Shown here piece by piece: positions 8,117 through 32,931 of a stretch of DNA of 38,492 nucleotides (positions are counted from its first letter, which is position 1; every line of letters starts with the position of its first letter). The notes beneath the pieces were generated by a model. It did not search any database. It was not told the DNA's origin and saw only the letters and a list, made by a program, of their open reading frames with translations. Source of the stretch: Gemmatimonadota bacterium (GTDB lineage: Bacteria > Gemmatimonadota > Gemmatimonadetes > Longimicrobiales > Gaopeijiaceae); NCBI GenBank assembly GCA_003248075.1, contig QJYK01000090.1, positions 1 through 38,492 on the forward strand, given 5' to 3'. Position numbers and translations under genes: made by a program.

Positions 8117-9227
8117 ATGACCAAGGACCAGATTCAGCGCCTGGAAGAGCTCGAGCAGAGGGTCCAAGAGCTCAGGGGGTACCTTTGACCTGGATCGGCG
8201 CCGTGAGCGACTGAGCGAGCTCGACCAGGCGATGGCCAGTCCCGGCTTCTGGGACCGGCAGGATCGCGCCCGCGAGACGATCGCGGAGGCCAACCGCATC
8301 AAGGCCTGGGTGGAGCCGTGGCGTGAGCTTCGCTCCAAGCTGGACGACCTCGGCGCGATGGTCGAGCTTCTCGAGGAGGAGTCGGACGCCGATCTCCTCG
8401 CGGAATGGGTCGGGGGTCTCGAGGCGGTGGATCAAGGCGTCCAGGCGCTCGAGCTCCGGACGATGCTGCAGGGCGAGGACGACCACCGCGAGGCGCTGGT
8501 GACCATCCACCCCGGAGCCGGAGGTACGGAGTCGCAGGATTGGGCCGAGATGCTGATGCGGATGTACACCCGCTGGGCGGAGCGCCGTGGCTTCGAGGTC
8601 GACATCCTCGACCTTCAGCCGGGGGAAGAGGCGGGAATCAAGAGCGCTACACTGGAGATCAAGGGCGAGAGCGCCTACGGCTACCTGAAGGCCGAAGCCG
8701 GGGTCCACCGGCTCGTCCGCATCTCGCCGTTCGATGCCCAGGCACGGCGACACACGTCGTTCGCTTCGGTGTTCGTCTATCCTCTAGTGGAGGACGACAT
8801 CGAGATCGACATCGACGAGGGGGACCTGCGGGTCGATACCTACCGGGCGTCCGGGGCCGGAGGACAGCACGTCAACAAGACCGACTCCGCCGTCCGTCTG
8901 ACCCACCTCCCGACGGGCATCGTGGTCGCCTGCCAACAGGAGCGATCCCAGCACAAGAACCGCGCAACGGCCATGAAGATGCTGCGGGCGGCCCTGTATC
9001 AGCATGCGTTGGAGGAGCGCGAAAAGGAGAGGCAGGCCATCGAGGCGACCAAGACCGACATCGCGTGGGGCAACCAGATCCGGTCCTACGTGTTCCAGCC
9101 CTACACCATGGTCAACGACCACCGCACCGAGTTGAAGGTCGGCGACGTGCAGGGGGTCATGGACGGGGGCATCGACCCGTTCATCGAAGCCTACCTCAAG
9201 CAGTTCGGCGCGGCTTCGGCGGCTTGA
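8117..9227 (+). CDS. prfB: Peptide chain release factor 2, with +1 programmed frameshift at 8186
   Basis: RF2 recognises UGA and UAA stop codons and triggers peptide release. The zero frame runs from ATG 8117 for 23 codons to an in-frame TGA at 8186-8188, within AGG GGG TAC CTT TGA C. This is nearly identical to the E. coli RF2 frameshift site, with the internal Shine-Dalgarno-like AGGGGG. Skipping T8186 joins codon CTT to GAC at 8187 and gives a product of about 369 residues (E. coli 365). The shifted frame carries the UGA-specific SPF tripeptide (RISPFDAQ) and the catalytic GGQ (GAGGQHVNKTDSAVR). The frameshift makes RF2 synthesis depend on RF2 level: scarce RF2 slows stopping at TGA and favours the shift. 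lysS follows within eight bases, an order also seen in E. coli. Confidence 0.97.
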
Positions 9228-21263: not shown

Positions 21264-21324
21264 CCCGGTCGTCGTTAGCTTTTCTTGATTTTGTCGTGTC
21301 ACGGCGTACCCGGCCCGAGCGCTC

Positions 21325-22611
21325 ATGAACTCCACGAAGCAGCGGACCATCTCCCGGGAGGTCTCCCTCCAGGGGGTCGGCGTTCATTCCGGGCGCGAGG
21401 CGACCCTCACGTTCCGCCCGCTTCCGGCGGACGCTGGGATCCGCTTCCGCCGCGTGGACCTCGAGGACTGCCCGGAGATCCCCGCGACCCTGGACCACGT
21501 GGTCGGAACGGAGCTCGGAACCAGCCTCGGCCTCGGTGACGCACATGTGCTGACGGTGGAGCACGTCATGGCGGCCTTGTCGGCCATGGGTGTCGACAAT
21601 GTTGTCGCCGATGTCAGCGGGCCGGAGATCCCGATCCGGGACGGCAGCTTCGCGGACTACGTGTCGGCCCTCGAGGATGCGGGGCTGCGCGAGCTGGAGG
21701 AGGACGCCCGGGTCATCACGGTTCGTAGTCCCGTGGCGGTGGACGGTGCGGACGGTGAATCGTACGTGGCGGCCCCCGCGGATGGCCTCCGGGTCTCGGC
21801 CACGATCGACTTCGCCCACCCCTCGATCGGCCGGCAGTACGGGTCCTTCCGGATCTCCCCGCACGGGTTCGCCGCCGAGCTCGCACCCGCCCGGACCTTC
21901 GGATTCAGAGCGGACGCCGAATCCCTGCACGCCCGTGGGCTGGCCCTTGGAGCCTCCCTGGAAAACACGGTCGTGCTCGACGAAGACGGGGTGATGAGCG
22001 GGGAGCTGCGCTTTCCCGACGAGTTCCTTCGCCACAAGGTCGGTGACATCGTGGGTGACCTGGCGCTGATCGGGGGCCGGCTGGCCGCCCATGTGGTCGG
22101 CGAGCGGCCGAGTCATCGTGGGAACGTGGCCCTCGCTCGCGAACTGGCCCGCCAGGCGCGCCGGGAAGGCAGAGCGCCGATCGTCGACGCGGCCAAGATC
22201 ATGCAATACCTGCCCCATCGGTACCCGATGCTCCTGGTGGACAGGATCATCGAGTTCGAGGAGGGGAAGCGGATCGTCGGCATCAAGAACGTCACCATCA
22301 ACGAGCCGTTCTTCCAGGGGCACTATCCGGGGCATCCCATCATGCCCGGCGTCCTGATCATCGAGGCGATGGCGCAGGTCGGCGGTCTGCTCCTCATGGA
22401 CGCGGTCGAAGATCCCGAGAACAAGGTCGTCTACTTCATGTCACTGGATAACGTCAAATGGCGTCGTCCGGTCACCCCGGGTGACACGCTGGTCTTCGAG
22501 CTGGAGATGCTCCAGTTCCGGCGGCACGTCTGCAAGATGCGCGGTCAGGGCTTCGTGGACGGCCAGCTCGTCGCGGAGGCCGACCTCATGGCCAGGATCG
22601 TGGACAAGTGA
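21325..22611 (+). CDS. lpxC/fabZ: LpxC-FabZ fusion: UDP-3-O-acyl-GlcNAc deacetylase / 3-hydroxyacyl-ACP dehydratase
   Basis: The 428-residue bifunctional protein joins LpxC (about 1-280) to FabZ (about 286-428). LpxC is the committed, zinc-dependent deacetylase of lipid A synthesis. The zinc ligands fit H80 (VEHVMAAL), H237 and D241 (FLRHKVGDIVGD). FabZ dehydrates 3-hydroxyacyl-ACP, competing for the acyl donor used by LpxA and LpxD; its catalytic pair is H333 (FFQGHYPGHP) and E347 (IIEAMAQ). Such fusions are known from Bacteroidota and relatives and would tie phospholipid and lipid A precursor use together. ATG 21325 precedes the LpxC strand TISREVSLQGVGVHSG. The stop overlaps the lpxA start. 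Confidence 0.96.
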   Translation: MNSTKQRTISREVSLQGVGVHSGREATLTFRPLPADAGIRFRRVDLEDCPEIPATLDHVVGTELGTSLGLGDAHVLTVEHVMAALSAMGVDNVVADVSGPEIPIRDGSFADYVSALEDAGLRELEEDARVITVRSPVAVDGADGESYVAAPADGLRVSATIDFAHPSIGRQYGSFRISPHGFAAELAPARTFGFRADAESLHARGLALGASLENTVVLDEDGVMSGELRFPDEFLRHKVGDIVGDLALIGGRLAAHVVGERPSHRGNVALARELARQARREGRAPIVDAAKIMQYLPHRYPMLLVDRIIEFEEGKRIVGIKNVTINEPFFQGHYPGHPIMPGVLIIEAMAQVGGLLLMDAVEDPENKVVYFMSLDNVKWRRPVTPGDTLVFELEMLQFRRHVCKMRGQGFVDGQLVAEADLMARIVDK

Positions 22612-24423: not shown

Positions 24424-24529
24424 GCGGAAGAAGACCTGGATCGACGCCCGCAAGGGCATGCCGATCAATCGGCTGCTCCTGCTGCTGGTCTTCGTGCTGG
24501 CTGCGATCTGGTATCTCAGCCGGATCTGA
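24398..24529 (+). CDS. 43-residue single-pass membrane micro-protein in the lipid A operon
   Basis: The frame from ATG 24398 encodes a basic N-terminus (SLIRVRRRRKKTWIDARKG, about residues 2-20) followed by one membrane helix (INRLLLLLVFVLAAIWYL, about 23-40) and RI. It overlaps the end of the oxidoreductase gene by 26 bases and ends 17 bases before lpxB. Positive-inside topology would put the Arg/Lys cluster in the cytoplasm. A longer in-frame start at 24335 exists but lies deep in the upstream gene. No family is recognised. The non-random TM plus basic layout and its place between lpx genes favour a real gene, perhaps helping to anchor a peripheral lipid A enzyme; that role is inference. 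Confidence 0.6.
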   Translation: MSLIRVRRRRKKTWIDARKGMPINRLLLLLVFVLAAIWYLSRI

Positions 24530-31073: not shown

Positions 31074-31358
31074 ATGTTCCTGCAGCTCATCCTCGTACTC
31101 GTCGTCCTGATCCCGTTGCTGGCAATCGTGCTCGATTCCCAGGTGGGGCGGGCACTGGCGTCGCGGCTGGAGCGCAGGAGTCTGGACGGCCCTCCGGATC
31201 TCATGGCGGAGAGGGTGGCGTTCCTGGAAGGCGAGGTCGAGCGGCTGACTACGGAGATCGGCCGCCTGGACGAGGAGAGCCAGTTCCTGCACAAGCTTCT
31301 CGCCGAACGTCATCCGGACGAGGGGGCGGCGCTTCCGCCGGCTGACCGGCAAGGCTGA
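31074..31358 (+). CDS. Small single-pass membrane protein with coiled coil
   Basis: The 94-residue product has an N-terminal membrane helix (about 2-21, FLQLILVLVVLIPLLAIVLD) and a charged heptad-like helix (about 44-80, MAERVAFLEGEVERLTTEIGRLDEESQFLHKLLAE). This topology recalls PspB- or FtsB-like small envelope proteins, but no family is recognised. It sits between bshC and murJ. Its last 110 bases overlap the open murJ frame (open from 31249), which lacks a normal start codon of its own, so the two may be coupled. The ATG has no Shine-Dalgarno sequence and may start a leaderless mRNA. Confidence 0.65.
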   Translation: MFLQLILVLVVLIPLLAIVLDSQVGRALASRLERRSLDGPPDLMAERVAFLEGEVERLTTEIGRLDEESQFLHKLLAERHPDEGAALPPADRQG

Positions 31359-32931
31359 GGCCGCCACGGGCCCCCCGACCGACGCACAACGGGACGGCCG
31401 AGGCGCCGCCAGGGTCGGCGCGGGCATCTTCCTGAGCCGGGTCGCCGGCTTCGTCCGGGAGCGGATCACCGGCTACTGGTTCGGCGCAGGCGACTATGCC
31501 GACGCGTGGCGTGCCGCGCTCCGGCTGCCCAACGTGCTTCAGAACCTGCTGGGCGAGGGAACCCTCTCCGCCTCCTTCATCCCCGTCTACGCGGAGTTCC
31601 TCGAGCAGGGGCGTGAAGAGGACGCCGGCCGCTTCGCGGGAGCCGCGCTGGGGATCCTGGTGGCCGTGGCGGGGGCGCTGGCTCTGATCGGCACAGCGGC
31701 GGCGCCGCTCCTGGTCGCGGTCTTCTTCGGCGCCTGGGATGCGCCCAAGCAGGCGGTCACGGCGACGCTGGTCCGCATCCTCTTCCCCATGTCGGGGATC
31801 CTCGTGGTCGGCGCCTGGGCGCTGGGGATCCTGAACAGCCACCGCCGATTCTTCGTCTCCTACGTCGCGCCGGTCTTCTGGAACCTGGCGATGATCTCCA
31901 CGCTGGTCGCCGGGGGCGCCTGGCTGGGACTGGGCCTCGAGGATCTGGTCGTCGCGCTTGGCTGGGGCGCGCTCGTGGGCGGGGCCCTGCAGCTCGGCGT
32001 GCAGCTTCCCTTCGTGTTGCGACACGCGCGTGCCATTCGCGTCAGCCTCGGACGAGGGGTCGAGGGGGTTCCGGAGGCGATCCGCAACTTCGCACCCGTG
32101 GTGGCTGGGCGGGGCGTGGTGAACCTCAGCGGGTGGATCGACGTGATCCTGGCGGCGCGCCTCACGTCCGGGGCCGTCGCCCTCCTCGGCTACGCGCAGA
32201 CCTTCTACGTGCTGCCGATCTCGCTCTTCGGCATGTCCGTCGCGGCCTCTGAGCTACCGGAGCTGTCCCGGAGGCGGGGTGACGCGCTCCATGCGCTGGC
32301 CGACCGTGTGTCGGCGGCGCTCCGACGGGCGTCGTTCTTCTTGATTCCATCGGCCATCGGGTACCTGGCGCTGGGAGACGTGATTGTCGCGGCGCTGTAC
32401 CAGACCGGAGCCTTCGGCACCGCGGAGACGCTCATCACCTGGGGCGTGCTGGGTGGGTACTCCGTGGGGCTGGCCGCGTCGGGGAGCTCCCGGGTCCTGT
32501 CGTCCGCGTTCTACGCCCTGCGGGACACGCGTACGCCGGCGAAGGTCGCCGTCCTGAGGGTGGTGATCTCGGCGGCGGTGGGCATCGCCCTCATGTTCCC
32601 ACTGGATTCCCTGGGCTTCCGCACGCTCCGCCTCGGCGCGGCCGGCCTGTCCCTGGGTGCTTCGGTGGGTGCGTGGGTCGAGTACGTGATGCTCCGAAGT
32701 GCGCTCGCGCGCTCGATCGGGCCGCACGGGCCGGGGGTCGGCCCGATGGCCCGCATGACGCTGGCGGCGGCGTTGGCGGCCGCTGCGGGAGTGGGGCTGC
32801 AGCTCCTCCTTCCGGACGCGCACCCCGTGCTCCTGGCCTTGGAAACGCTCCTGCCGTTCGGGGTAGTCTACCTCGCCGCGGCGGCCGCGCTCGGAGTCCC
32901 GATCCCCTCCGTGGGCATCCGGCGGCGCTGA
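31342..32931 (+). CDS. murJ: Lipid II flippase MurJ (start codon unclear)
   Basis: MurJ flips lipid II across the inner membrane for peptidoglycan synthesis (MVF/MOP family). The sequence has the N-terminal hallmark FLSRVAGFVRERITGYWFGAG and ALRLPNVLQNLLGEGTLSASFIPVYAEFL, then about 12-14 hydrophobic helices to the C-terminus. The first canonical in-frame start, GTG 31534, cuts off helix 1 and the conserved RVAGFVRE, so the real start must be upstream. Between the in-frame stop at 31246 and that block there is no ATG, GTG or TTG. CTG 31342 is the best candidate (about 529 residues) and lies inside the end of the upstream gene. A base error or an unusual initiation event are the alternatives. 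uvrC follows after 41 bases. Confidence 0.88.
   Translation: MTGKAEAATGPPTDAQRDGRGAARVGAGIFLSRVAGFVRERITGYWFGAGDYADAWRAALRLPNVLQNLLGEGTLSASFIPVYAEFLEQGREEDAGRFAGAALGILVAVAGALALIGTAAAPLLVAVFFGAWDAPKQAVTATLVRILFPMSGILVVGAWALGILNSHRRFFVSYVAPVFWNLAMISTLVAGGAWLGLGLEDLVVALGWGALVGGALQLGVQLPFVLRHARAIRVSLGRGVEGVPEAIRNFAPVVAGRGVVNLSGWIDVILAARLTSGAVALLGYAQTFYVLPISLFGMSVAASELPELSRRRGDALHALADRVSAALRRASFFLIPSAIGYLALGDVIVAALYQTGAFGTAETLITWGVLGGYSVGLAASGSSRVLSSAFYALRDTRTPAKVAVLRVVISAAVGIALMFPLDSLGFRTLRLGAAGLSLGASVGAWVEYVMLRSALARSIGPHGPGVGPMARMTLAAALAAAAGVGLQLLLPDAHPVLLALETLLPFGVVYLAAAAALGVPIPSVGIRRR

Follow-up and report, generated by a model that had tools for sequence, protein, structure and literature searches.

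The window, by which the whole stretch of DNA analysed is meant (38,492 nucleotides), is an entire contig of a 5.64 Mb draft genome (344 contigs) with an estimated contamination of 4.65%. In it, a small gene of 94 amino acids (31074 to 31358, forward strand) precedes murJ. Its product has a hydrophobic N-terminal stretch and a coiled-coil-like remainder, both judged by eye, and the window copy gave no match to Pfam or NCBIfam models at E ≤ 0.001. The gene is conserved between bshC and murJ and was sought by motif, so that its occurrence in at least 85 of 129 murJ loci may be an undercount. Its tail typically reads LPPGD followed by a few residues and the stop in relatives, and LPPADRQG in the window. 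Besides the window itself, the 129 loci came from genomes of the same family and order and from 12 named records, of which one (L045) is titled Bdellovibrionales. They were obtained from 145 loci after 13 identical and three truncated ones (L039, L165, L237) were dropped; two copies of the window (L001, L002) and two loci that were too short (L239, L240) were excluded.

The murJ frame, read from stop to stop in the window, is open from 31249 to 32931 without internal stops and is bounded upstream by an in-frame TGA at 31246 to 31248 (forward strand, codon-by-codon reading). The product scored 288.1 bits against TIGR01695 (cut-off 235.55) and 273.3 bits against PF03023 (cut-off 27.4), which assigns it by sequence to the MurJ lipid II flippase family, flippase activity being predicted. 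Of 15 named records with a MurJ like that of the window, 14 were titled Gemmatimonadetes, Gemmatimonadota or Gemmatimonadales. Differences from the L046 murJ over 524 codons were 0.227, 0.170 and 0.473 at codon positions 1, 2 and 3, indicating constraint on the frame of what is taken to be an intact gene.

Codon-by-codon reading found no ATG, GTG or TTG in the murJ frame between the TGA at 31246 to 31248 and GTG 31534, which is the first canonical in-frame codon and lies inside the conserved MurJ domain. The initial annotation, which described murJ as lacking a canonical start and its N-terminal block as encoded from about 31420, was therefore right on both points, as the conserved block begins near 31402 to 31420. 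If murJ starts at a CUG, gene finders limited to ATG, GTG and TTG would truncate it to GTG 31534, probably with loss of the first transmembrane helix.

Aligning the starts of relatives, as had been suggested with the initial annotation, indicated where translation is likely to begin. In relatives, the tail of the preceding gene contains the murJ GTG within its Gly-Asp codons (G-GTG-AC), 14 nt before the stop of that gene. This position fell in the murJ frame in 65 of the 85 loci with the upstream gene found, and it was occupied by GTG in 50, by TTG in one, by CTG in one (the window only) and by other codons in 13. The GTG was the sole canonical in-frame start in 30 of the 50 loci, and a canonical codon was present elsewhere in the frame in 12 of the 13 loci with another codon, the exception being L054. 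The window codon, CTG at 31342 to 31344 (forward strand), is one base off the GTG of relatives, with C in place of G. A genome of the same genus (G001, locus L003) has GTG at this place, and a locus from another genus (L015) reads GTG ACC GGC AAC GCT GAG where the window reads CTG ACC GGC AAG GCT GAG. The first two bases of the CTG are contained in an Ala codon (GCT) of the coiled-coil gene, where relatives have Gly (GGT). Among the 65 loci, only the window has CTG at this place, its species being represented by one genome.

Since this position is homologous to that of the relatives' GTG, the earlier proposal of CTG 31342 as a plausible start is very probably right. The full reading, in which murJ translation starts at CTG 31342 by coupled initiation at CUG after an ancestral GTG changed, is given a probability of roughly 60%. 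With no canonical codon before the core and a near-cognate one at the place of the relatives' starts, murJ is classed from its sequence as a candidate for a near-cognate start. The coding sequence as most likely translated would extend from CTG 31342 to the stop at 32929 to 32931 (31342 to 32931, forward strand), as supported by PF03023, TIGR01695, the homology of the start position and the only match to the MurJ N-terminus in the genome.

The 110-base overlap with the coiled-coil gene reported previously holds for the open frames from stop to stop, but not for the genes, which would overlap by 17 bases from the start codon to the upstream stop (31342 to 31358, forward strand), with the same geometry as in relatives. 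On sequence grounds, the two genes form an overlapping pair with conserved start/stop geometry and are probably coupled. Containing the murJ GTG may be the sole reason why the Gly of the coiled-coil tail is retained. In three loci (L034, L177, L178) the murJ start has moved and the tail reads SD in place of GD.

It had also been considered conceivable that a programmed +1 frameshift fuses the coiled-coil protein to MurJ. The murJ frame is indeed +1 relative to that of the coiled-coil gene and open back to 31249, and prfB in the same window (8121 to 9227) has a classical +1 frameshift site, AGGGGGTACCTTTGAC at 8183 (CTTTGAC), a site that was checked in the window only. Against this, murJ has a separate GTG in the same junction of relatives, in 20 of 85 loci the end of the coiled-coil gene lies in a different frame with respect to murJ, so that the shift is not conserved, and the stop context of the coiled-coil gene in the window is GGC TGA G (31353 to 31359), with no CTTTGA-type site in the junction. 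The fusion is thus barely credible.

The Shine-Dalgarno (SD) context was evaluated by energy scoring. An SD-like stretch, CGAGGGGGC (31319 to 31327, forward strand), pairs with the anti-SD at −10.9 kcal/mol and ends 14 nt before CTG 31342. This match was the third strongest among 52 loci (median −5.85). It is partly fixed by the protein sequence of the upstream gene and is far from the CTG by textbook measure, and both points count against a start at the CTG. Across the 52 loci, the SD match peaked with the pairing stretch ending 10 to 14 nt before the start. Such spacing, like the 14 nt of the window, exceeds the textbook distance, and its occurrence across these loci would fit initiation aided by ribosomes arriving from the upstream gene. 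A hairpin shortening the distance between SD and start was also considered and rejected. The window sequence does allow a stem, but across the 52 loci the region from −30 to +3 was no more stably folded than its mononucleotide shuffles (mean z 0.14, two loci below −1.5).

Other near-cognate codons from which murJ might start, among them ACG 31366 and ATC 31426, were weighed by the same scoring; their use is quite unlikely. ACG 31366 lies just past the upstream stop and has a GAGG with 5 nt between, but its SD energy (−5.6) and those of ATC 31426 (−4.8), ACG 31270 (−6.6) and AGG 31411 (−6.5) are all weaker than the −10.9 of the CTG, and none of these codons is at the place of the relatives' starts.

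All 64 codons were reportedly studied as starts by Hecht et al. in 2017, and the figures used here are those quoted second-hand. According to a passage of PMC11497404, CUG output is 0.86% of that of AUG in E. coli and CUG accounts for 0.024% of bacterial starts. Since murJ is expected to be essential, this weakness counts against a CTG start. The Caulobacter case weighs in the same direction, a toeprint-positive CUG upstream of dnaA being described in part of PMC8443254 as unused in vivo. The low output of CUG in E. coli (the same passage of PMC11497404) would also suit a murJ that is poorly translated, decaying and replaced by another lipid II flippase. This is very improbable, since the TIGR01695 score is above cut-off, the frame is open, the codon positions show the pattern of constraint, and a search with the N-terminal 241 residues of MurJ gave no second match in the own genome at E ≤ 0.001. 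If CUG is used, a presumably essential gene depends on a codon yielding under 1% of AUG output in E. coli.

A relaxed initiator tRNA was considered as the cause. The sole tRNA-Met candidate found by pattern search, from which copies with a changed stem would escape, has the ordinary anticodon stem-loop GGGCTCATAACCC, so a relaxed tRNA would not explain a CTG start, which counts against such a start. The 16S rRNA of the draft covers model positions 9 to 754, short of position 1338, where a G to A change was the other relaxation considered.

The mechanism proposed for the preferred reading, a start at CTG 31342, would be as follows. An ancestral GTG lay in the Gly-Asp codons of the coiled-coil tail, and in this lineage its first base would have become C, which would also have turned the overlapping Gly (GGT) into Ala (GCT). 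Ribosomes would terminate the coiled-coil gene at 31356 to 31358 and re-initiate at the CUG 14 nt back, assisted by the strong SD-like stretch upstream, with the ordinary initiator tRNA decoding the CUG. Alternatively, the upstream ribosome may unfold the junction; these data do not separate the two models, both of which are described in part of the review PMC12548453. A low rate of CUG initiation may suit a low-abundance membrane flippase. The direction of the GTG to CTG change, the use of CUG, the coupling and the low rate are steps that we infer, and sensitivity of murJ to IF3 is a prediction only.

The remaining 128 murJ loci were examined together with the window for similar cases. A canonical in-frame start was present in 125 of 129 distinct loci and absent in four, namely the window, L054 (G037), L238 (G097) and L208 (G114). 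In L054, from another family of the order, the best-placed near-cognate was a CTG with an SD energy of −11.7 kcal/mol. In L238, a CTG overlaps the upstream stop as CTGA, its SD score being tied with that of the next codon, ATC. L208 has GCG at the homologous place, as judged by eye, and no convincing candidate start, so that a locus lacking a canonical codon does not necessarily use CTG. Overall, CTG was the near-cognate with the best SD in three of the four loci (including the tie with ATC) versus 21 of 125 controls (P about 0.017, in a post hoc comparison that includes the window). The frequency of CTG in the same stretch of the 125 control loci was 1.3% (46 of 3633 codons).

A shared-frame survey of 264 gene instances on 11 syntenic contigs flagged 19. 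By reading, these were seven clpC genes with the Met just past the tolerance, seven prfB genes in the frameshift frame, two genes cut by contig ends and three remaining genes: murJ of the window's own genome (G000) and lpxB of G006 and G016.

Starts of lpxB were compared in 36 loci, out of 109 family genomes with a match. A canonical start within 30 codons of the core was lacking in three (G006, G016, G143), and in all three a CTG overlaps, as CTGA, the stop of a small membrane gene. One of them (L263) has a GTG 64 codons upstream, and G022, whose only such codons are TTGs at 25 and 27 codons upstream, was placed among the canonical loci. An in-frame CTGA before lpxB occurred in eight of the 36 loci, five of which, window included, also have a canonical start, and thus CTGA alone proves nothing. 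All three loci without canonical start were among these eight and none among the other 28, a comparison chosen post hoc. Together, the four murJ and three lpxB genes come, by their taxonomic labels, from seven different genera. This small membrane gene, whose product has an end like IWYLxxRF, was found before lpxB in 31 of the 36 loci but not in the other five. In the window, its stop is the TGA at 24527 to 24529, with a CTGA in the lpxB frame plus a GTG a short way downstream. An in-frame TGA was observed within the lpxB match of G034 (G034:C7) and of G103 (G103:C69).

These counts also bear on the possibility that the organism has GTG at 31342 and that the C is a base-call, assembly or strain-consensus artefact of the draft. 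GTG is the codon in 50 of 65 loci, the same-genus G001 included, and the genome is a draft in 344 contigs, estimated to be 4.65% contaminated, in which another contig carries a second era-like piece (65% identity). On the other side, the murJ frame is otherwise open over 560 codons, and three further murJ genes of 129 and three lpxB genes of 36, in other genomes, also lack a nearby canonical start, while only about 0.04 of 129 would be expected at an assumed rate of one wrong base in 10,000. Recurrence above this assumed rate speaks for genuine non-canonical cases in the group, without showing that the one in the window is genuine. An error is considered unlikely, and even then the comparison would still fix the right place of the murJ start.

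With a few relatives showing similar oddities, the finding is real, though its reach is modest, and the murJ CTG is a well-explained oddity of a known kind, that of rare near-cognate start codons. The data hint at tolerance of CTG at coupled junctions within the order; re-initiating ribosomes would then accept CTG at a CTGA or 14 nt before an upstream stop. A broader reading, in which CUG would serve this order of Gemmatimonadota as a fourth functional start codon at coupled junctions, so that genes like murJ and lpxB can lose ATG or GTG harmlessly, is speculative and on balance doubtful. What could be new, if real, is that CTG is used repeatedly at such junctions in the order. Because CTG recurs at CTGA junctions, one can test whether ribosomes that re-initiate are less strict about the start codon than free 30S subunits. 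The seven titles and abstract openings found on start codons in Gemmatimonadota make no mention of CTG starts in this phylum.

Non-canonical starts are known from Deinococcus deserti. One of the closest known cases is infC, encoding IF3, which according to a section of PMC5472188 starts with ATT in E. coli and ATC in Streptomyces and is under IF3 control. Both infC and murJ would be essential genes with a start one base off a canonical codon, but the infC start is conserved and autoregulatory, whereas the murJ CTG is private to the window among the 65 loci and its link to IF3 is only predicted. The same section describes Streptomyces sigR, with a GTC start repressed by IF3. As would be the case for murJ, its near-cognate start is overlooked by gene finders and leads to low-level translation. 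In contrast, the sigR codon is GTC, conserved, regulatory and mutation-tested in Streptomyces, while the murJ CTG is a candidate start read from the DNA sequence.

Part of the review PMC12548453 describes translational coupling in gene pairs spaced as NTGA (−4 nt) or otherwise. The genes considered here share with them the overlap of start and upstream stop, which would be 17 bases for murJ in the window and take the form CTGA in L238 (murJ) and in three relatives (lpxB), but differ in that the first base of the start is C; the main text of the review does not use the term CUG. In E. coli, CUG initiation complexes, as presented in part of PMC11497404, were formed with a mutant initiator tRNA and designed mRNAs. 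The likeness lies in the pairing of CUG with the initiator anticodon at the second and third positions, whereas murJ is a natural candidate in a genome with an ordinary initiator stem.

The infC gene of the own genome (L126, G000:C97) has no canonical codon between the upstream stop and the core, and an ATC stands behind GGAGGT. This near-cognate case in the same genome speaks for the CTG reading of murJ. Eight of 12 infC loci matched the motif, some of them also with canonical codons upstream; ATC, ATT or ATA was at the same place in seven of the eight, and the ATT of L121 was one codon off. In G016, one infC copy (G016:C47, L131) has an in-frame TAG, and a second copy without stops exists.

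As far as it was tested, era also lacks a suitable canonical start, in line with the initial annotation. In the window, era (453 to 1601) has only GTG 489, about 70 codons before the core, and this far GTG is the reason why the survey of 264 instances left era unflagged. In relatives, an ATG was found within 14 codons of the core in 23 of 30 loci. By eye, the ATG of several relatives follows a TANNNT box at about 5 to 6 nt, an arrangement suggestive of a leaderless mRNA; the window has TACCAT at 619 to 624, then 5 nt and then ACC, not ATG, with ATC 657 as another candidate. The second era-like piece (G000:C262:4688-5278), to which the 65% identity to the window era refers, is perhaps contamination. 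Finally, LpxC and a FabA-like domain share one frame at 21289 to 22611.
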